Assembly: GCA_030601865.1 (NCBI GenBank)
Contig: JAUWAW010000007.1
Coordinates: 1-32,101 of the forward strand
Length of the DNA stretch: 32,101 bases
Direction: 5' to 3'
From: Candidatus Nealsoniibacteriota bacterium
GTDB taxonomy: Bacteria > Patescibacteriota > Minisyncoccia > Minisyncoccales > JAUWAW01
Shown here one piece after another: positions 5,610 through 32,003 of this stretch (positions are counted from its first letter, which is position 1; each line of letters opens with the position of its first letter). Position numbers and translations under genes: made by a program. The notes under the pieces were generated by a model, which saw only the letters and a list, made by a program, of their open reading frames with translations, made no database searches and was not told the DNA's origin.

Positions 5610-6335
5610 TTACCCCCGGGCCACCACTACGCCCCAGACCTCTTGCGCGCCTGCCTTTTTCAGCACGCGGCCGCACTCTTCCATGGTAGCACCAGTGGTA
5701 TAAATATCATCAACCAAGAGAATTTTTCGGCTCCGCACCTCCTCAGGCTTTTGACAAAAAAAGGCGCCTTTAATATTTTCCTCTCTTTCCGATTCTGAAA
5801 GTTCTACCTGGGCTTGGGTCTCTTTAATTTTTAATAAAGAATCGCCGACTACTGGAATCCTCAAAAACTTCCCCAGTTCTTTGGCAATCTCCTCGCTTTG
5901 GTTAAAACCCCGCTCTCTCAACTTGCTTTTATGAAGGGGTACTGGCAGTAAAACAAACCTGGAAAAGTCAGGCGGTTTGTCCAATAAATGAAAATGGGTT
6001 ATTATTAAAGAAGCTAAAGTGTTAGCCAGGCCTTTAAAATAAGGTGGGTATTTAAACTGCTGAATTAATCTTTTGGTCAAAAAATTCTCATAGGGCAGAG
6101 CAGAGTATAAACCATGCAAAATTTTGCCTCGGCATTTTCTACATTTGCCCTTCACCATTTTTGTTCCAAAAATGGTGAAGGGTTCTTTGCAGAGACAATG
6201 TTGCTCTTCTGAAACCTCTAACAAGGCCTGACAATCTTGACAGAGATAACTCCCCTCTTTGCCACAACTGAGACAAAACCGAGGGAAGAAAATGTCCAGG
6301 AGAAAAGCTTTTATTGAAATTAATATTTTTTTCAT
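5610..6335 (-). CDS. comF: ComF family phosphoribosyltransferase-like protein
   Basis: N-terminal zinc finger CLSCG..CQDC; PRTase motif ILLVDDIYTTGATMEEC. Confidence 0.93.
   Translation of the reverse strand: MKKILISIKAFLLDIFFPRFCLSCGKEGSYLCQDCQALLEVSEEQHCLCKEPFTIFGTKMVKGKCRKCRGKILHGLYSALPYENFLTKRLIQQFKYPPYFKGLANTLASLIITHFHLLDKPPDFSRFVLLPVPLHKSKLRERGFNQSEEIAKELGKFLRIPVVGDSLLKIKETQAQVELSESEREENIKGAFFCQKPEEVRSRKILLVDDIYTTGATMEECGRVLKKAGAQEVWGVVVARG
6148..6182. repeat. Family A palindrome CCCTTCACCATTTTTG-TTC-CAAAAATGGTGAAGGG inside comF
   Basis: 16-bp perfect inverted arms, 3-nt loop. Confidence 0.88.
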
Positions 6336-10732: not shown

Positions 10733-11920
10733 ATGATTATTCTAGCCATTGAAACTTCTTGCGACGATACCTGTGTCGCCATAGTCAAGGCCTCTGGAAA
10801 AAGAAGACCGCATTTTGAAATTTTGTCAAACATTATCTCCTCGCAAGTAGAAATCCACAAAAAATGGGGAGGCGTCTATCCTAGTTTAGCCAAACGAGAA
10901 CACCAGAAAAACTTACCCTTGGTCTTAAAAAAAGCCCTTAAGCCGTTGACATCGGATGTCAACATCCGATGTCAACGGCAGAAAAAGATTGATGCTATTG
11001 CTGTGACAGTTGGGCCGGGGTTGGAGCCGTGCTTGTGGGTGGGCCTAAATTTTGCCAAGGATTTGGCGCAGAAATGGAACACACCCCTTATCTCTGTCAA
11101 CCATATTGAAGCGCACATACTCGCCAATTTCATCAGTCCCACCTGTCATTCTGAGCGAAGCGAAGAATCCCGCGGTCAGTGCACAAACAACGGGACCCTT
11201 CGCTCTGCTCAGGGTGACCCCCCACCACTTTTGGAACAAAAGTGGTGGGGGGTCAATTTTCCGGTTGTATGCTTGGTGGTCAGTGGGGGTCACACACAGT
11301 TAATTTTGATGAGAGATTTCGGTCATTATAAAATTCTGGGGGAGACCCGCGATGATGCGGCTGGCGAATGCTTTGACAAAATAGCCCGGCTTTTAGGGCT
11401 GGCCTTTCCCGGCGGCCCAGCTATCGCCGCCGAAGCAAAAAAATATGTTCGTGGTAAAAAACCTACGATCGTAGGTTTTTTACCACGAGGGTTGCCGCGG
11501 CCGATGATTTACCAAAAGAATTATGATTTTAGTTTTTCCGGGTTGAAAACTGCTGTTTTGTACAATTTTAGAAGTCAATCACCCGGGGTAAGGAAATCAA
11601 AAAAATATATCCAAGAAATGTGTACTGAGGTACAACAAGCCATAATTGATGTTTTAATTCACAAAACCATAAAAGCTGCTAAAGACTACCGAGTACAAAC
11701 TGTCATCTTGGGCGGCGGCGTGGCTGCTAACAAAGAGCTACGTAAACAATTCCAGCAAAGACTTAAAAAAGAGAAATCAAGTTTCAAGTTCCATGTTCCA
11801 AGTTTCAAGTTCTGTACTGACAATGCCGCCATGGTCGGAGTGGCTGGATATTTTCAATGGTTAAAAGGAAAAAAAAGAAACTGGAAAGACATTGAAGTAA
11901 ATGCCAATTTAAGGGTATAA
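10733..11920 (+). CDS. tsaD: tRNA threonylcarbamoyladenosine transferase TsaD, with multiple in-frame repeat insertions
   Basis: MIILAIETSCDDTCVAIV, HIEAH, VSGGHTQL, FSFSGLKTA, GGGVAAN, CTDNAAM all present. Confidence 0.97.
   Translation: MIILAIETSCDDTCVAIVKASGKRRPHFEILSNIISSQVEIHKKWGGVYPSLAKREHQKNLPLVLKKALKPLTSDVNIRCQRQKKIDAIAVTVGPGLEPCLWVGLNFAKDLAQKWNTPLISVNHIEAHILANFISPTCHSERSEESRGQCTNNGTLRSAQGDPPPLLEQKWWGVNFPVVCLVVSGGHTQLILMRDFGHYKILGETRDDAAGECFDKIARLLGLAFPGGPAIAAEAKKYVRGKKPTIVGFLPRGLPRPMIYQKNYDFSFSGLKTAVLYNFRSQSPGVRKSKKYIQEMCTEVQQAIIDVLIHKTIKAAKDYRVQTVILGGGVAANKELRKQFQQRLKKEKSSFKFHVPSFKFCTDNAAMVGVAGYFQWLKGKKRNWKDIEVNANLRV
10942..10979. repeat. Palindrome in tsaD: GCCGTTGACATCGGATGT-CA-ACATCCGATGTCAACGGC
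   Basis: 18-bp arms; encodes PLTSDVNIRCQR. Confidence 0.9.
11145..11218. repeat. REP-like inverted repeat in tsaD (GTCATTCTGAGCGAAGCGAAGAATCC ... GGACCCTTCGCTCTGCTCAGGGTGAC)
   Basis: Imperfect arms; encodes CHSERSEESR...TLRSAQGD. Confidence 0.85.
11216..11254. repeat. Family A palindrome in tsaD: GACCCCCCACCACTTTTG-GAA-CAAAAGTGGTGGGGGGTC
   Basis: 18-bp perfect arms, 3-nt loop; encodes DPPPLLEQKWWGV. Confidence 0.92.
11449..11488. repeat. 40-bp perfect palindrome in tsaD: TCGTGGTAAAAAACCTACGA/TCGTAGGTTTTTTACCACGA
   Basis: Perfect self-complementarity; encodes VRGKKPTIVGFLPRG. Confidence 0.92.
11779..11813. repeat. Short-word repeat in tsaD (aagtttcaagttccatgttccaagtttcaagtt)
   Basis: 7-bp AAGTTTC/AAGTTCC words; encodes SSFKFHVPSFKF. 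Confidence 0.75.
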
Positions 11921-11927: not shown

Positions 11928-14045
11928 ATGAAGCTTTCTAAAACTTACAGCCCTAAACAAGTTGAAGATAAAATTTATCGCTTGTGGCAAAAGTCCGGCT
12001 TTTTTAATCCTGACAAACGGCCTGCTCAGCGCAAAAAAACCTATTGCATCACCATTCCCCCTCCAAATATTACCGGCTCGTTGCATATGGGTCATGCCTT
12101 AAACACAGTGGTTCAGGATATTTTAATTCGCTTCAAGCGGCTTCAAGGTTTGAGAACCCTTTGGTTGCCGGGCACCGACCATGCTGGCATTGCTGCTCAG
12201 AATGTAGTGGAAAAAGAACTAAAAAAAGAGGGTAAAACTCGCTTTGACTTGGGTCGTGAAAAATTCATTGAAAGAATGTGGGACTGGAAGAAAAAGTACG
12301 GAAATATAATCTTAGACCAATTAAAAAAGCTGGGGGCCTCCTGCGACTGGTCAAGGAAAGTATTTACCTTAGACAAAAACTATTCCGAAGCAGTGAAAAC
12401 CGCCTTTTTGCATTACTATAAAAAGGGCTGGATTTATAGAGGGAAAAGAGTCATTAATTGGTGCCCCAGGTGCCAAACGAGTTTGTCAGATTTGGAACTG
12501 GAATACAAGGAAGAAAAGGGGAAACTATGGTATATTAAGTATCCACTGGAACAAAAAAACAAAAGAACAAAAGAACAAAAGAACAAATATGTCCTTGTGG
12601 CCACGACCAGGCCGGAAACAATGTTAGGTGATATGGCTGTGGCTGTCAATCCAAAAGACAAAAGATATAAAAATCTGAAGGGTAAAAAAGTGATTTTGCC
12701 TTTGGTGGAACGGGAAATTCCAGTTGTGGCAGATAATCTGGTAGACCCCAAATTCGGCACCGGCGCAGTAAAAGTCACTCCAGCCCATGACTTTACTGAT
12801 TACAAAATTGCCCAAAATCATAATCTAACATTTTGCCAAATTATTGATGAGCAAGGGAAAATTACCGAAGAAGCCCCCCTCTCCTATCAAGGATTAACTA
12901 TTCTAAGAGCCCGGCAAAAAATAATTGAAGATTTGAAATCAAAAAAACTCTTGGAAAAAGAGGAAGCTTACAAAATCTCTATTCCCAAATGTTATCGCTG
13001 CTCAACCACAGTGGAATTTATCCCTTCTCAACAGTGGTTTTTGAAAATGGACAAATTAGCCAAGATGGCGGAAAAAGCAGTCAGGCAAGGCAAAATAAAG
13101 TTTATTCCCAAAAGGTTTGAAAAAACATATTTTGATTGGCTGAAAAATGTTCGGGACTGGTGTATCTCGCGACAAATCTGGTGGGGGCACAAAATACCAT
13201 TGAAGGACGAAAGTGATGTCTTGGATACCTGGTTTTCTTCTGCTCTGTGGCCTTTTGTCACTCTTGGCTGGCCCCAAAAAAATAACGACCTAAAAAGATT
13301 TTATCCTACGGATGTCCTTTCTACGGGTCGTGATATTATCAATCTCTGGGTGGCCAGGATGATTTTCTCCGGTTTGGAATTTATGAAAAAAGTTCCCTTT
13401 AAAGATGTCTATGTCCATGCTACTGTCTTAACGCGGGAAGGAAAAAGAATGTCAAAATCCCTGGGGACTGGAGTTAACCCTTTAGACCTTATTGAAAAAT
13501 ACGGCGCTGATGCCACTCGCTTCGGTATTGCCTGGCAAGTGATGGGAGGCCAGGACATAAAATTCGTAGAAGATAATATTATGATGGGCAAAAAGTTTTG
13601 TAACAAAATCTGGAATGCAGCCCGCTTTGTCCTTTTAGAAATAGAAAGCGCTAAAACTCTGCTGCTACATAGCAGCAGAGTTTTAGTCGAAACAAAGAAT
13701 TTAAATAATGTCGATAAAAGAATTCTTGGGGAGTTAAACAAAACAATAAAATCAGTCAACAAACATTTAGAAAATTTTCAATTTGGCAAGGCAGCTCAGG
13801 TTTTATACGATTTTTTCTGGCATGATTTTTGCGACCGCTATATTGAAGAAACCAAGCGTGTTGACATCGGATGTCAACAACGCACTCAAAAAATCTTATT
13901 ATATGTCCTTTTGACCTCTCTTAAACTCCTGCATCCTTTTGTGCCGTTTATTACGGAAGAAATCTACCAGAAATTACCTTTGAAAGATAAAAAACCCTGC
14001 CTAATGGTAGAAACCTGGCCAAACTCGCTTCACTCGCACTTATGA
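11928..14045 (+). CDS. valS: Valyl-tRNA synthetase
   Basis: PPPNITGSLHMGHAL, TTRPETMLGDMAVAV editing domain, WCISRQIWWGHKIP, DVLDTWFSSALWPF, KRMSKSLGTGVNP. Confidence 0.96.
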   Translation: MKLSKTYSPKQVEDKIYRLWQKSGFFNPDKRPAQRKKTYCITIPPPNITGSLHMGHALNTVVQDILIRFKRLQGLRTLWLPGTDHAGIAAQNVVEKELKKEGKTRFDLGREKFIERMWDWKKKYGNIILDQLKKLGASCDWSRKVFTLDKNYSEAVKTAFLHYYKKGWIYRGKRVINWCPRCQTSLSDLELEYKEEKGKLWYIKYPLEQKNKRTKEQKNKYVLVATTRPETMLGDMAVAVNPKDKRYKNLKGKKVILPLVEREIPVVADNLVDPKFGTGAVKVTPAHDFTDYKIAQNHNLTFCQIIDEQGKITEEAPLSYQGLTILRARQKIIEDLKSKKLLEKEEAYKISIPKCYRCSTTVEFIPSQQWFLKMDKLAKMAEKAVRQGKIKFIPKRFEKTYFDWLKNVRDWCISRQIWWGHKIPLKDESDVLDTWFSSALWPFVTLGWPQKNNDLKRFYPTDVLSTGRDIINLWVARMIFSGLEFMKKVPFKDVYVHATVLTREGKRMSKSLGTGVNPLDLIEKYGADATRFGIAWQVMGGQDIKFVEDNIMMGKKFCNKIWNAARFVLLEIESAKTLLLHSSRVLVETKNLNNVDKRILGELNKTIKSVNKHLENFQFGKAAQVLYDFFWHDFCDRYIEETKRVDIGCQQRTQKILLYVLLTSLKLLHPFVPFITEEIYQKLPLKDKKPCLMVETWPNSLHSHL
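12550..12588. repeat. 8-bp tandem array (AACAAAAG) inside valS
   Basis: aacaaaaaaacaaaagaacaaaagaacaaaagaacaaat; encodes EQKNKRTKEQKNK. Confidence 0.85.
13651..13686. repeat. Family B palindrome in valS: CTAAAACTCTGCTGCT-ACAT-AGCAGCAGAGTTTTAG
   Basis: 16-bp perfect arms, 4-nt loop; encodes AKTLLLHSSRVLV. Confidence 0.92.
13860..13878. repeat. GTTGACATCGGATGTCAAC unit in valS, same unit as in tsaD 10942-10979
   Basis: Identical 19-mer. Confidence 0.85.
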
Positions 14046-16850: not shown

Positions 16851-16857
16851 AAGATTC

Positions 16858-17004
16858 ACCCCCACACCAAACCGGGCAAGGGCTAAATTATAATGATGTT
16901 CAAAGCCGATAGGCGGTTTCGCCCCCACCACCAAATTCTGGTGTGGGGGCTTCGCCTCTCGTCCATCAACGTTCAATGGCCGTCGCTGGGTTTGGTATGG
17001 GGGT
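16858..17004. repeat. 147-bp element with 16-bp terminal inverted repeats ACCCCCACACCAAACC, nested internal palindrome
   Basis: Right end GGTTTGGTATGGGGGT (1 mismatch); internal GCCCCCACCACCAAATTCTGGTGTGGGGGC at 16921-16950. Confidence 0.75.
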
Positions 17005-19576: not shown

Positions 19577-21355
19577 TTACTCCTCTGTTACTCTCAGCAC
19601 TTCCTCAATCGTGGTAATGCCGTCTAATGCTTTCAAAATGCCATCCTGTTTCATGGTGAGCATTCCCTGACGAACCATCTCTTGGGCAATTCCCTTTTCA
19701 GTGACGCCTTCCAAAATAAGGTCAGACAGCTCATCGGTCATGGCTAAGGCCTCAAATATCCCAATTTGACCAATAAAGCCAATGTCGGCACATTTTCTAC
19801 AACCCTGAGCCTGATAAATGTAAAGAGGCTTGGGGGGTTTGATTCCTTTTACCCCCACACCAGAAGGGGGGCTGGCTTCGCCAATTTTAGCGCCTTTGGC
19901 GCTCTGCCCCCGTTTGGTGTGGGGGTGAAGTTCTTTCAAAATCCAATCGCGAATTTCTTTTTTTGGTTTCACCTTTTTTCTACAATGAGGACACAATTCT
20001 CTTAGCAATCTCTGGGCTATGGCACAGCTCAAAGTGGGAAGAATTAAATAAGGTCGGATTCCTAAATCTATCAAGCGAGGGATGACCCCCAGAACATCAG
20101 TGGTATGTAAGGTAGACAAAACAATATGACCGGTCAGAGCAGCATGGATGGCCAAAGAGGCGGTTTCCTCATCTCGGATTTCCCCCACCATAATGATGTC
20201 AGGGTCTTGACGCAAAACATGACGGAGACCAGTGGCAAAGTCATAGCCAATTTCTGGCCTCACTTGGGACTGATTAACTCCTTCTATAAAGTACTCTACC
20301 GGGTCTTCCAGGGTAACAAGATTTACTCCTTCTTTATTTAATCTCCTCATCATAGCGTATAGAGTGGTGGTCTTGCCACAGCCGGTGGGACCGGTAGCCA
20401 AAATGAGTCCAAAGGGTTTTTTGATGGCTTTTTCTGTTGCTTCAAGGTTCTTCCTTGCCAAACCCAGTTTTTCAAAAGGCTTCAAACCCACGCTCGGATC
20501 AAGTACCCTGATAGCTACTTTCTCTCCCAAGGTAGTGGGAAAGGTAGAGACCCGAAAATCAATCTCCTTATCCTCAACTTTAGTAGTAAATCGGCCATCT
20601 TGGGGAATTCTGGTCTCATCAATTCTAAGATTAGAAAGAATCTTAACTCTGGCTACCACTGCTGGATGTATCCTTATGGGCAAAAGGATGGAAGAATGTA
20701 AAATCCCCAGCAGGCGAAAACGGATTCTTAACTTTTCTTTGGTTGGCTCAATATGAATATCGGACGCCTTCCCTTCTACGGCGTGCCGCAAGAGAACAGC
20801 CATCACTTTGCTAATGGGCGCTTCCTCTACCAATCTCTCAAATTCAGCTGGAGTAGGAGGACGTTTCTCAATTTTTTCAGCCTGTATCTCCACCTCCAGT
20901 TCTTCCAAAGCTTTCTTCACCTCTCTTTTAAGAGAACGATATTTTTTGAACAGATTCTTATGGTCAGATAAGCTAATCAAGCAAATTTTATAAGAGAATT
21001 TACCCTGACGGGCTAAAAACTTCAAGGCCTCCTGGACTTTAAGGTCTTCAGGATAAACCATACCCACCTCTAAAACATTATCTTTTAAGGATATGGGTAT
21101 CATCTGATAAAATCTGGCTGACTCTTCGGGAATGAATTCTAAGGTCTTGAGGGGTATTTCTTCCAAGGCAACTTCTTTTAAGGGAATTTTTAAATTTTCG
21201 CTTTTTAAGCCAAATAAAAAACCTTCAGAAGCAATTCTTTTTTCCAAAAGAACCTCTTCTTCTCTCCTCCCAGAACTTTTAATTTCAAACTCAAGAGAAG
21301 TGGCTTTCTCCTTGTCTAAGACTCCTTTTTTAACTAATTGTTGTATAAGAGTCAT
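19577..21355 (-). CDS. pilB: PilB/GspE family type IV pilus assembly ATPase, copy 2
   Basis: GPTGCGKTTTLYAMM, EDPVEYFIEGVNQSQV, GEIRDEETASLAIHAALTGH, CPHC...CRKC. Confidence 0.95.
   Translation of the reverse strand: MTLIQQLVKKGVLDKEKATSLEFEIKSSGRREEEVLLEKRIASEGFLFGLKSENLKIPLKEVALEEIPLKTLEFIPEESARFYQMIPISLKDNVLEVGMVYPEDLKVQEALKFLARQGKFSYKICLISLSDHKNLFKKYRSLKREVKKALEELEVEIQAEKIEKRPPTPAEFERLVEEAPISKVMAVLLRHAVEGKASDIHIEPTKEKLRIRFRLLGILHSSILLPIRIHPAVVARVKILSNLRIDETRIPQDGRFTTKVEDKEIDFRVSTFPTTLGEKVAIRVLDPSVGLKPFEKLGLARKNLEATEKAIKKPFGLILATGPTGCGKTTTLYAMMRRLNKEGVNLVTLEDPVEYFIEGVNQSQVRPEIGYDFATGLRHVLRQDPDIIMVGEIRDEETASLAIHAALTGHIVLSTLHTTDVLGVIPRLIDLGIRPYLILPTLSCAIAQRLLRELCPHCRKKVKPKKEIRDWILKELHPHTKRGQSAKGAKIGEASPPSGVGVKGIKPPKPLYIYQAQGCRKCADIGFIGQIGIFEALAMTDELSDLILEGVTEKGIAQEMVRQGMLTMKQDGILKALDGITTIEEVLRVTEE
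19852..19927. repeat. 76-bp palindromic insertion inside pilB2, ends ACCCCCACACCA/TGGTGTGGGGGT
   Basis: Shares terminal motif with 16858-17004 element; encodes HPHTKRGQSAKGAKIGEASPPSGVGVK. Confidence 0.85.
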
Positions 21356-22163: not shown

Positions 22164-22178
22164 AATTCGTAGGGCTAA

Positions 22179-22450
22179 TTCAAGATTATATATTTATACC
22201 TTAACGAATCAAGGTTCTGACGAGCGTTAGCGAGGCAGGTTCTTAATTCAAGACTATATATTTATTCCTTAGCGAATCAAGGTTCTGACGAGCGTTAGCG
22301 AGGCAGGTTCTTAATTCAAGACTATATATTTATACCTTAACGAATCAAGGTTCTGACGAGCGTTAGCGAGGCAGGTTCTTATTTCAAGACTATATATTTA
22401 TTCCTTAGCGAATCAAGGTTCTGACGAGCGTTAGCGAGGCAGGTTCTTAT
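22179..22450. repeat. Tandem repeat, 4 x 68 bp, alternating A-B-A-B variants
   Basis: ttcaaga[t/c]tatatatttat[a/t]cctta[a/g]cgaatcaaggttctgacgagcgttagcgaggcaggttctta; units start 22179, 22247, 22315, 22383. Confidence 0.95.
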
Positions 22451-22968
22451 TTAAATACTTCGGGAGCAAGGAATAAACTCAAACTAAATAGGGCACCGCC
22501 TTCTTTTCTAATGGAGATTTTAGACAAATGAACAGATTTAATTTCCGGGGCTTTTTTAAAAATAAGAATTTGCTGGCCCAGGGTTTGAAAACTCTCAGCA
22601 TTTCCGGAAAGTCCAGCTCTAAGCTCCTCAGAATTGAGACTAAGTTCTGTGAACTGAACCTGGGGATGGCAAAGTTTTTCTAAAAAGGAAAAGAAATTTA
22701 AAGGAACCTGATGTTCAGCAACAAGTACGGAAAAATCGTTTATTTTCTCCTGGCAGCTGAAGACCTCCTTTTCTAAAAGTTCCTGAGAAGGTTTTTTTTG
22801 AGAGATAACCGCCTCTAAATTTTGCAGGGTTTGAGAGGCTCTTTTTTGAAACAGACTTAAAAAAAATAGCGCTAAAACCGAAACTAAAAGTATAGTTATT
22901 GAAACATAGAAAAGAATACCCAGCCAAAGAGGAAGTTTAGCTACGCGCTTGGGAATTATTTCAACCAT
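22447..22968 (-). CDS. pilN: PilN-like type IV pilus assembly protein (start MVEIIPKRVAKLPLW preferred)
   Basis: One N-terminal TM, coiled coil, position upstream of pilO-like. Confidence 0.65.
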   Translation of the reverse strand: MVEIIPKRVAKLPLWLGILFYVSITILLVSVLALFFLSLFQKRASQTLQNLEAVISQKKPSQELLEKEVFSCQEKINDFSVLVAEHQVPLNFFSFLEKLCHPQVQFTELSLNSEELRAGLSGNAESFQTLGQQILIFKKAPEIKSVHLSKISIRKEGGALFSLSLFLAPEVFK

Positions 22969-24642: not shown

Positions 24643-27136
24643 TTAGATACAGGCGACTGAGGCCACCTTATCATCAACATCTAAACGCATTATTTTTACC
24701 CCCTGGGTGGCTCGGCCCAAAATGGGAATCAAAGCAATCTTGACCCTAATAACCTGCCCCTTCTGGGAGATAACAATTAAATCTTCTTCTGTCCCTATAA
24801 GCACTCTAGAGGCAATCAGGTCTCCTGTTTTGGCAGTAAGTCGAGCTGCTTTAACTCCCATACCTCCCCTTTGCTGAACTTTAAATTGTCCGAGCTCTGT
24901 CCTCTTGCCATAGCCATTTTCCGTAATTACTGATAAATATTGTTTTTCTGTTTTTCTGTTTTTCTGTTTTTATCACCTCCATCCCAATAACTTCATCTAC
25001 CTTCCTCAATCTAATGCCTCGGACTCCAGCAGCTTGTCTGCCCATTGGTCTTATCCCCTTCTCGGCAATACGAATGCCTTGTCCCTTCTTGGTAAACAAA
25101 ATTATTTGGTCCTCTCCTCTGCTTTTTGAAACCTTTCTCAGCAGGTCTCCCTTTTTAAGGGTAATGGCCCGCAATCCAGTTCTGCGAACATTTTCAAAAG
25201 CTGCCAGGGGCGTTTTTTTAATTATACCATTTTTAGTCACAAGCACTAAATAGTTTATCCCCAGTTCAATATCCTTTTTAGATAGAGGGAAAAGCGATAA
25301 AACCTTCTCTTGAGAAGAAATCTCCAGAAAATTAGCCAGACCTCGTCCCTTGGCCACCCGGGGTAAACTGGGAATTTCATAGGCCTTGATGCTAAAAACT
25401 TTTCCTAAATCAGTAAAGAAAAACAAAGAATCATGGGTCTGGCAGGAGAGAAAATGCTCAACAATATCTTCTCCAAAGGTTTTCATGCCCAAAATGCCTT
25501 TGCCTCCCCGCTTTTGAATTTTATAAACTTGGGGGGCAATTCTTTTAATATAGCCCCCCTGGGTGAGGGTGATAATAGTTTCTTCCTGAGGAATTAAATC
25601 CTCTTCTGCTATCTCTCCAACGGCTCCAATAGAAACCTTGGTTCTTCTCCGGTCTTCAAAATTCTCCTTCAGTCCTAAGAGCTCTCTTTTGACAACCCCT
25701 TTTATTCTTGCCGGGCTTTTTAAGATAGCGGTAAGTTCTTTAATTTTAGTCAAGATTTCTTTAAGTTCTTGAGCAATTTTTTCTCGCTCTAAGCGAGCTA
25801 AGGCAGCCAGCTTCATCTCCAAAATGGCATTGGCCTGGATAGCGGTAAGCCTAAATTTCTTAATCAGATTCTTCTGGGCCTCTTCCCTGTCCTTAGAGAC
25901 CTTAATGGTTTTTATGACCGCATCAATTTTAGATAAGGCCTTATGCAGCCCTTCTAAGATATGAGCTCTTTCTTTTGCTTTTCCTAAATCGTATTTTGTT
26001 CTTTTAAAGACTACCTCTATTCTATGTTTCAGAAAATAAGTCAAGAGTTCAGCCAAAGACAGGACCTTTGGCTGAATGCCATCCACCAAGGCCAGCATAT
26101 TCAAATGGAAGGTCTTTTGCAGGTCAGTAAATTTATAGAGGCGGTTGAGAATTTTTTGGGGATAAACGGCTCTACCCAGGTCCAAAACTATTCTTAGGCC
26201 TTCTTTATCCGACTCATCTCGAATATCTTTTACTCCCTCAATCCTTTTCTGAGAAGCCAAATTGGCTATCTGTTCCAATAAAGAGGATTTACGGACCTGA
26301 AAGGGAATCTCAGTAATGATAATCTGCTGCTCACCTTTGTTCTTTCCTTCAACAATCTCAGCTTTACCTCTTATCACTATGGGCCCTTTCCCCTGAGAAT
26401 AAGTGGAGATAATCTCTTTCCGGTTATAAACCAGACCTCCGGTGGGAAAATCTGGCCCCTTAATAAAACTAAAAAGGTCTTCGGTGGTGGCTTTGGAATG
26501 TGCTATTAAATAAACTGCCGCATCCACCACTTCAGAAAGATTGTGAGGAGGAATGTTTGTGGCCATACCCACGGCAATTCCCAAGGTGCCATTTAAAAGA
26601 AGTTGGGGCAAGGGCGAGGGTAGGACAGTCGGTTCCTTCCTTGTCCCATCATAGTTATCCACAAAATCCACCGTGTCTTTCCCAATATCTTTAAGCATTT
26701 CCTCGCTAATTTTGGAAAGCTTCGCCTCGGTGTACCTCATAGCAGCAAATTCACTTGGGTCGTCAACCGACCCCCAATTACCTTGACCATTAACTAAAGG
26801 ATAGCGCAAAGAGAAATCTTGAGCCATCCTAGCCATAGCTGCATAAACTGCTTGGTCACCGTGGGGATGGAATTTTCCTAAAACCTCACCAACGACCGTG
26901 GCTGATTTTCTAAATTTAGCTGCGTGTCCCAATCCCATACCATGCATGGCATACAAAATCCGGCGGTGGACTGGCTTTAGACCATCTCTGACATCAGGCA
27001 AAGCGCGGGAAATAATCACTGACATGGCATAGTCAATGTATGAATCTTTCATCTCCTCCACAATCTCCCGCGGCTTAATATAGCCGATTTCATTCTTTGA
27101 TTGTATATTTGGTTGTGATTGTCTCTTCTTGGGCAT
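24643..27136 (-). CDS. gyrA: DNA gyrase subunit A, frame broken in the C-terminal domain (ORFs 24881..27136 and 24643..24861)
   Basis: [43 protein letters not shown] continues in another frame: [36 protein letters not shown]. Confidence 0.93.
24941..24972. repeat. 8-bp tandem array (AAAAACAG on coding strand; 3 exact + 1 with last base changed) at the gyrA frame break
   Basis: tgtttttc tgtttttc tgtttttc tgttttta. Confidence 0.95.
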
Positions 27137-27195: not shown

Positions 27196-27237
27196 AACTT
27201 CCCAGTTTCTTCACGACCGTGAAGAAACTGGGAAGTT
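27196..27237. repeat. Palindrome AACTTCCCAGTTTCTTCACG-AC-CGTGAAGAAACTGGGAAGTT between gyrA and MBL-like gene
   Basis: 20-bp perfect arms. Confidence 0.9.
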
Positions 27238-27871
27238 ATGGTCTTAAGACAACTATTTCCATTTCTTCTGCCGGGAGGTCTTTCTTTTTAATCACTAATT
27301 TATCTTGCGGTTCAATGCTCTTTTGACCCATTGTTTTTAAAAATTTATCTAAGTTGCCCTTGTCATATATGGGGATAACTACTCTTGGTTCAATTTGGGA
27401 AATTATTTTTTGAGATAAATCACCCGCCGGAATCATCAGAATATCTACATTGCCAATCTTCTCCAACTGGTCATCCGTTAATTCTTTTTGTTCCAAAGCT
27501 GCCAGATGGCAAAGCCGTATTTCCTCTGCCTCAATAGTATAATAAGTCACCTCCCCGCCTGCAACGCTATGCCAGCCCGCATGACTTGCGTCAGCATGTC
27601 TGGCGGGCGTAGCATTGCGGGCAGGTCCTCTGTCAGCAGAGATGCCCTGAAAAAATACCCCTTTTGTCTCATATTCCCCGGGCCCATCAATTAAAAAAGG
27701 CCCTGCCTGCCCCCCACCACTTTTGCTCCAAAAGTAGGGCTGGGCAGAACTAATTAATAAAACATCCGCCTTTCTTGCCCTGAGAGGGTCAATGACAATG
27801 TTAACTTTCTCCCGTTTCGGGTTTTGAACCATAACCTGAAAACAAGATTGTCCGTGCCAGATAATGTGCAT
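27236..27871 (-). CDS. MBL-fold (UlaG/UPF0173-like) protein with degenerate active site and two palindromic insertions
   Basis: MHIIWHGQSCFQV..VNIVIDPLRARKADVLLIS, GPFLIDGPGEYETKGVFFQGI, QLEKIGNVDILMIPAGD. Confidence 0.8.
   Translation of the reverse strand: MHIIWHGQSCFQVMVQNPKREKVNIVIDPLRARKADVLLISSAQPYFWSKSGGGQAGPFLIDGPGEYETKGVFFQGISADRGPARNATPARHADASHAGWHSVAGGEVTYYTIEAEEIRLCHLAALEQKELTDDQLEKIGNVDILMIPAGDLSQKIISQIEPRVVIPIYDKGNLDKFLKTMGQKSIEPQDKLVIKKKDLPAEEMEIVVLRP
27548..27628. repeat. Palindromic insertion in MBL-like gene (gcctgcaacgctatgccagcccgcatgacttgcgtcagcatgtctggcgggcgtagcattgcgggcagg)
   Basis: Imperfect long inverted arms; encodes GPARNATPARHADASHAGWHSVAG. Confidence 0.8.
27703..27747. 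repeat. Family A palindrome in MBL-like gene (CCCCCCACCACTTTTG-CTC-CAAAAGTAGGGCTGGG)
   Basis: Imperfect arms, same core as 11216-11254; encodes AQPYFWSKSGGGQAG. Confidence 0.82.
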
Positions 27872-31737: not shown

Positions 31738-31770
31738 AAAAAATACACGGGTCCGACCCGTGTATTTTTT
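31738..31770. terminator. Hairpin terminator
   Basis: AAAAAATACACGGGT-CCG-ACCCGTGTATTTTTT. Confidence 0.85.
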
Positions 31771-31772
31771 AT

Positions 31773-31837
31773 TTCAAGAATATATGTTTATACATTAGCG
31801 AATCAAGGTTCTTGAGCGAAGCGAAAGGTTCTTATTT
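31773..31837. repeat. Diverged single copy of the 68-bp unit seen at 22179-22450
   Basis: ttcaagaatatatgtttatacattagcgaatcaaggttcttgagcgaagcgaaaggttctta. Confidence 0.8.
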
Positions 31838-31967: not shown

Positions 31968-32003
31968 CCAAAAGTATGCTGCTATGTAGCAGCATACTTT
32001 TGG
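31968..32003. repeat. Family B palindrome CCAAAAGTATGCTGCT-ATGT-AGCAGCATACTTTTGG
   Basis: 16-bp perfect arms, 4-nt loop; same 36-bp architecture as 13651-13686. Confidence 0.92.

Follow-up and report, generated by a model that had tools for sequence, protein, structure and literature searches.

A palindrome carried in frame by tsaD, together with its copy in valS, is best explained as a REP-like non-autonomous element that was spread by, or along with, the Y1/HUH transposase encoded on contig C14 of the same genome; the probability of this reading is put at roughly 0.8. What was observed directly is the pairing of a transposase gene with its cognate palindrome, the return of this arrangement with different palindromes at orthologous loci, the number of copies, and their placement in frame within genes. 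The window (the whole stretch of DNA that was analysed, 32,101 nt) comes from a multi-contig assembly of an uncultured organism with a size of 0.59 Mb (590,907 bp) and a completeness of 96%. About 230 kb of this genome was read directly, and the counts for families A, B, C and CHSERSEES and for TTGGAGTT were obtained by genome-wide pattern searches. The host genome is alone in its family within the collection, and the relatives compared belong to other families of the order.

The tsaD product (tRNA t6A37 threonylcarbamoyltransferase) scored 351.5 bits in a profile search with the curated TsaD model TIGR03723 (cutoff 296.1). The motifs HIEAH, SGGHT, FSGLKTA, GGGVAAN and CTDNAAM are all intact, in agreement with the preliminary description of a gene that stays open through its repeats with five preserved catalytic motifs. 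That description had counted five in-frame insertions; four of these repeat elements are real and they occupy three sites (Table 1). The limits given for the palindromes at sites 1 and 3 were correct and both are perfect, the palindrome placed at 11216–11254 extends by one base on either side, and the 74 bp element that had been called a palindrome is a true inverted repeat of a dispersed family but an imperfect one. The latter two elements share 4 bp and thus form one compound insert of ∼38 residues. The three perfect palindromes reached stem scores of 18, 19 and 20, compared with 10 for the best hairpin in 300 dinucleotide-preserving shuffles of tsaD. The peptide encoded by the palindrome at site 1 is PLTSDVNIRCQR.

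Table 1. Coordinates of the tsaD and valS genes, the repeat elements and the cognate transposase gene (window positions unless a contig is given).
Feature	Position	Strand	Remarks
tsaD	10733..11920	+	395 aa, open, motif-complete
Family A palindrome, tsaD site 1	10942..10979		38 bp, perfect; core GTTGACATCGGATGTCAAC plus overlapping partial second copy
CHSERSEES-family inverted repeat, tsaD site 2 (left part)	11145..11218	+	74 bp, imperfect
Family C palindrome, tsaD site 2 (right part)	11215..11255		41 bp, perfect
Family B palindrome, tsaD site 3	11449..11488		40 bp, perfect; encodes RGKKPTIVGFLPRG
13 bp direct repeat in tsaD	11779..11813	+	AAGTTTCAAGTTC, two copies; ordinary loop, no insertion
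valS	11928..14045	+	705 aa; two palindromes (families A and D)
Family D palindrome in valS	13651..13686		36 bp, perfect; AKTLLLHSSRVLVETK
Family A core in valS	13860..13878		encodes VDIGCQQ (other open frame)
Family C palindrome in comFC-like gene (5610–6335, minus)	6148..6182		in frame; encodes FTIFGTKMVKG
Degenerate family C copy in gene 27236–27871 (minus)	27710..27744
Second family D palindrome	31968..32003		36 bp, intergenic
Y1 transposase gene (this genome, G000)	C14:26451-27185		family A palindrome upstream, inside and downstream

The peptides had been described as foreign to TsaD, and this was borne out by an alignment with TsaD from 24 relatives of the same order: no insert residues recurred at the same place. 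Alignment to solved homologues placed the family A copies in tsaD and recG in variable stretches between conserved motifs. Relative to Thermotoga TsaD the net gain at sites 1 and 3 is ∼9 residues each, and the compound site is the sole large net insertion with respect to distant homologues. The length of 395 aa, previously regarded as exceeding the usual one, is owed in part to the palindromes, but TsaD proteins across the order span 343–443 aa in any case, with other repeats in the same loops. The fifth candidate insertion (SSFKFHVPSFKF, 11779–11813) was rejected because it aligns without gaps to relatives (for example LPNVKFFVPETKFSTDNA) as an ordinary shared loop; the repeated word had no other occurrence in the 230 kb of genome read. 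A single-sequence structure prediction of TsaD (mean pLDDT 41.6) was too poor and was set aside. The cell apparently makes TsaD and other essential enzymes with extra loop peptides.

The palindrome at tsaD site 1 belongs to family A, the core of which (GTTGACATCSGATGTCAAC) is a perfect palindromic 19-mer that is nearly invariant between copies (19–21 bp are shared). A genome-wide pattern search located 22 exact copies in the 590,907 bp genome; the reversed control pattern of the 19 bp core gave zero copies in the same sequence. Among the other 246 genomes of the order, two have a single copy each and the rest have none. GTDB genomes totalling 264 Gb, in a scan that may omit records of the window's own genome, yielded four stretches, all from Patescibacteria (Nealsonbacteria and AH-259-L07, with two contigs each), and no copy was present in IMG/VR. 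The 22 exact copies comprise 11 firmly in genes, one just upstream of topA, three in doubtful ORFs and seven that are intergenic. The 11 in-frame copies are spread over nine recognizable genes: tsaD, valS, rsmA (two copies), recG (two copies), the Y1 transposase gene, the indolepyruvate ferredoxin oxidoreductase α subunit, a GT4 glycosyltransferase, an HTH regulator and a sigma-like factor, the last two labels being our reading of the sequence. Two of the three frames of the core are open, which holds in either orientation since the core is palindromic, and both are used (LLTSDVN in seven copies, VDIxCQQ in four). The recG product has ∼23 residues more than Thermotoga maritima RecG at the family A site. 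The copy in valS is length-neutral with respect to Thermus thermophilus ValRS, those in rsmA are almost so relative to solved homologues, and the palindrome in the glycosyltransferase of a genome from another family (G008) is nearly so relative to its homologues; loop replacement is therefore as possible as pure insertion at these sites. The feet of family A show a bias to GTCT/GTTT (13 of 44) on both sides. Canonical feet are absent: within 8 nt of the 44 family A feet, GTAG occurs once, GGAG once and CGTC twice. G061, a relative from another family, contains a variant of family A, TTGACATCWGATGTCAA, in five copies (L087, L094, L097, L099 and L101), which lie mostly between genes or at ORF ends.

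Four Y1/HUH genes were identified in the genome by a profile search (PF01797, above the cutoff), and the PNHFHLLL and YIQVxN/YIHxN motifs are present. Two of them also matched the NCBIfam model NF047646 (REP_Tyr_transpos), at 35 bits against a cutoff of 80, and comparison of the Y1 protein with PDB sequences gave no meaningful match. The palindrome at tsaD site 1 is the cognate of the transposase gene listed in Table 1. Its upstream copy (26392–26414) lies ∼36 nt ahead of the start, its inner copy (26607–26629) is in frame and its downstream copy (27187) follows the stop by 1–2 nt. The two Y1 genes on contig C17 have palindromes of their own, with cores AACTATTGGAGTTSAACTCCAATAGTT and TGTTGGAGTTWAACTCCAACA, each upstream, inside and downstream, and the remaining C14 gene has a TGTCCGAGANGGCNNCTCGGACA-like palindrome upstream and inside. 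The cognate palindrome is dispersed in the genome in the case of family A (22 exact copies), and dispersal is weak for the others: the C17 family TTGGAGTTNAACTCCAA has eight copies genome-wide, of which six belong to the two C17 units and another lies near the N-terminal end of the phosphoglycerate kinase ORF.

A match to the C14 Y1 protein was present in 133 of the 247 genomes of the order. Thirty Y1 loci were read, of which 29, including the genome's own gene, could be parsed: 15 have the palindrome upstream, inside and downstream, one upstream and inside, six upstream and downstream only, and seven have none. The palindrome sequence differs from locus to locus among the relatives, and the inner copies all map to a single variable loop that precedes the HUH motif. 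Exact copies of the cognate palindrome in the two relatives checked numbered two (G080) and five (G065), mostly at the Y1 unit; one G065 copy outside its unit lies in a 402 aa open frame. With so few copies there, the expansion of family A in the present genome looks unusual.

By analogy with the chemistry of TnpA-Y1 and REPs, the Y1 enzyme would bind the palindrome when it folds in the single-stranded DNA of replication and cleave at it, after which the element would be moved or copied to new places, probably at replication forks. Copies within genes would persist only if they preserve the reading frame and add their peptide to a loop that tolerates it, and under this proposal tsaD and the other essential genes would for that reason be read straight through. 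Loops that accept one element may accept more, as tsaD would have done in gathering families B and C and the CHSERSEES repeat, and part of the native loop may be lost or replaced at sites such as those in valS and rsmA.

The other tsaD repeats share the habit of palindrome 1. A search of the genome with the elements, as the preliminary description had proposed, returned families A, B, C and CHSERSEES at further places. Family B is present three times, each time in frame and with the same encoded peptide, KKPTIVG; the two outside tsaD are near C14:25205 and C14:27425, in genes beside the C14 Y1 transposase. The hosts of family C include tsaD, comFC, a phosphohexomutase gene and a UPF0102 gene, among others. 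At the family D site, ValRS is ∼8 residues longer than its T. thermophilus counterpart. The CHSERSEES repeat is widespread (its 24 nt word was found in 33 IMG/VR stretches), and a related copy occurs in a P-loop/ferredoxin-domain gene of this genome. No Y1 partner for families B, C and D, or for CHSERSEES, was found among the loci read, which makes the mechanism for B, C and CHSERSEES less certain.

The palindromes might instead have formed in place by template switching at replication (fold-back copying or quasi-palindrome repair), with no transposase involved. In favour of this, the TsaD genes of relatives (L015, L020 and L022) contain palindromes whose left arm coincides with the conserved codons for ILAN or AIAQ, and in families B, C and D the outer arms vary from copy to copy yet remain self-complementary. 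For family A this origin is refuted by the occurrence of one 19–21 bp core in 22 unrelated contexts, and the three matching copies at each of many Y1 loci also speak against it. The complementarity of family A past position 10 from the centre is at the level of shuffled partners, so that the flanks were not folded in; extension of its outer arms by copying of the flanks was accordingly ruled out. As an account of the palindromes in general, template switching is considered improbable.

A nearly invariant, perfectly palindromic 19-mer also suggests a dimeric DNA-binding site, and some copies of family A are intergenic, as would suit sites for a regulator or a replication/segregation factor that fall in genes by chance. 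About half of the copies, however, are within the coding regions of genes that have no function in common, the core is all but confined to this genome (the four Patescibacteria stretches in 264 Gb) and each Y1 gene has its own palindrome, and we therefore give this explanation very little weight. An assembly or amplification artefact in the form of chimeric inverted repeats would be a natural concern with an uncultured organism and a multi-contig assembly; it is contradicted by identical cores across different genes and contigs, by preservation of the frame in conserved genes and by the fact that many independent genomes show the three-copy layout, each with a different sequence, and its likelihood is negligible. 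Spread by or with the C14 transposase is the favoured reading for family A.

Comparison with relatives points to recurrent use of tolerant loops over one ancient inherited insertion. The single family A copy of G008 lies in the same glycosyltransferase loop as one of the copies in the present genome, the two proteins being 52% identical. Orthologues are palindrome-free at this loop in some genomes and contain other palindromes in others; in G125 the loop holds the palindrome that brackets that genome's own transposase. Five of the 18 hairpins in these glycosyltransferase genes fall at this one loop, and two more loops of the glycosyltransferase in the family of G008 (L147, L148 and L149) contain palindromes that differ by genome. 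Site 2 of TsaD is occupied by another palindrome in G044 and by fold-back palindromes of native ILAN codons in G049 and G015; other relatives have short-word repeats there. A swap of one palindrome for another in shared loops is possible. It may even be, although this is doubtful, that throughout the order each Y1 transposase keeps its own in-frame palindrome as a working part (for self-address or autoregulation) and that the palindromes are exchangeable loop cassettes which match the resident transposase. The TsaD gene of G049 (L022) also contains two identical copies and one variant of a repeat, HPVKSFASSKRKSEILFNRV, with the ends ACCCTGTTAAAT and ATTTAACAGGGT.

The system is of the RAYT/REP type with intragenic repeats and is a variant of a published phenomenon, as both intragenic REPs and in-frame REPs in tnpA-REP genes have been reported. 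Quentin et al. (2018; PMC6006769) described tnpA-REP genes of subclass 2.4 (RAYT group 4, 'double-foot' REPs) that contain in-frame REPs, generally between HUH and Y, and mentioned REP insertions in unrelated genes. As in RAYT/TnpA-REP systems, that subclass especially, a Y1/HUH gene is flanked by its own palindromes (a REPtron), palindromes occur in frame inside the transposase gene itself, several distantly related cognate pairs coexist in a genome and the palindrome is dispersed in the host (PMC6006769). The present system differs in that the inner copy lies before HUH, in the lack of a GT[AG]G foot (a weak GTYT is found on both sides) and in having tens of copies at most, in a 0.59 Mb Patescibacteria genome. 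RAYT/REP repeats are mostly extragenic, unlike family A, half of whose exact copies (11 of 22) are firmly intragenic. Di Nocera et al. (2013; PMC3733652) described intragenic GTAG/CGTC REPs, many of them in DNA synthesis and repair genes, for example in Opitutus terrae. These share with the present repeats the in-frame location in many unrelated genes, often ones for DNA synthesis and repair, and the presence of both single and grouped or dimeric inserts, but here there is no GTAG/CGTC tag, and the genome has a cognate transposase gene that holds an inner copy.

Rickettsia palindromic elements (RPEs) from R. conorii are also described in PMC3733652. The resemblance to RPEs proposed earlier, with several unrelated palindrome families in frame in a single gene, is borne out by four of the five tsaD elements, the fifth being no insertion; palindrome 1 is, however, genome-wide and tied to a Y1 gene that is flanked and entered by it, so that RAYT/REP systems are the closest match rather than RPEs alone. 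Judged by description, the likeness is that short palindromes sit in frame in genes whose proteins are functional, with several families per genome. RPEs are not known to have a cognate transposase gene. RPE-1 is much longer than the 19–21 bp core of family A. Coding palindromes of Nematomorpha mitochondria are likewise perfect inverted repeats inside protein-coding genes; they are reported to be up to 284 bp in length and to be embedded in the coding genes (PMC6649704), with no dispersed core, unlike family A, and they resemble the ILAN/AIAQ palindromes in the TsaD of relatives more closely. A literature search of open-licence papers found no report of such repeats in Patescibacteria. The present case differs in its lineage and its minimal genome, in palindromes that are perfect and carry no tag, in the position of the inner copy ahead of HUH and in the presence of several families in one essential gene.

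The repeats amount to an insertion mutagenesis performed by nature on the essential proteins of a minimal genome, and they mark tolerant loops of TsaD, ValRS, RsmA and RecG. Coevolution within the many matched transposase–palindrome pairs makes the question of how REPs spread open to direct testing. Peptides encoded by palindromes also muddle the annotation and structure prediction of Patescibacteria proteins.

Some further repeats were noted. Gene 27236–27871 has an insert-like stretch, RGPARNATPARHADASHAGWHSVAGG, at 27540–27640, the peptide of which resembles the palindrome insert PARNASRSDAGG in the TsaD of G044; contig C17 of the present genome likewise contains a word from the G044 repeat. 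An insert-like stretch in a PilB-like ATPase (HTKRGQSAKGAKIGEASPPSGVGVKGIKPPKP, 19848–19929) overlaps an inverted match to 16855–16883. A 68 bp direct repeat at 22176–22515 of the window comprises approximately four tandem units, and one more related unit lies 9 kb away at 31766–31812.
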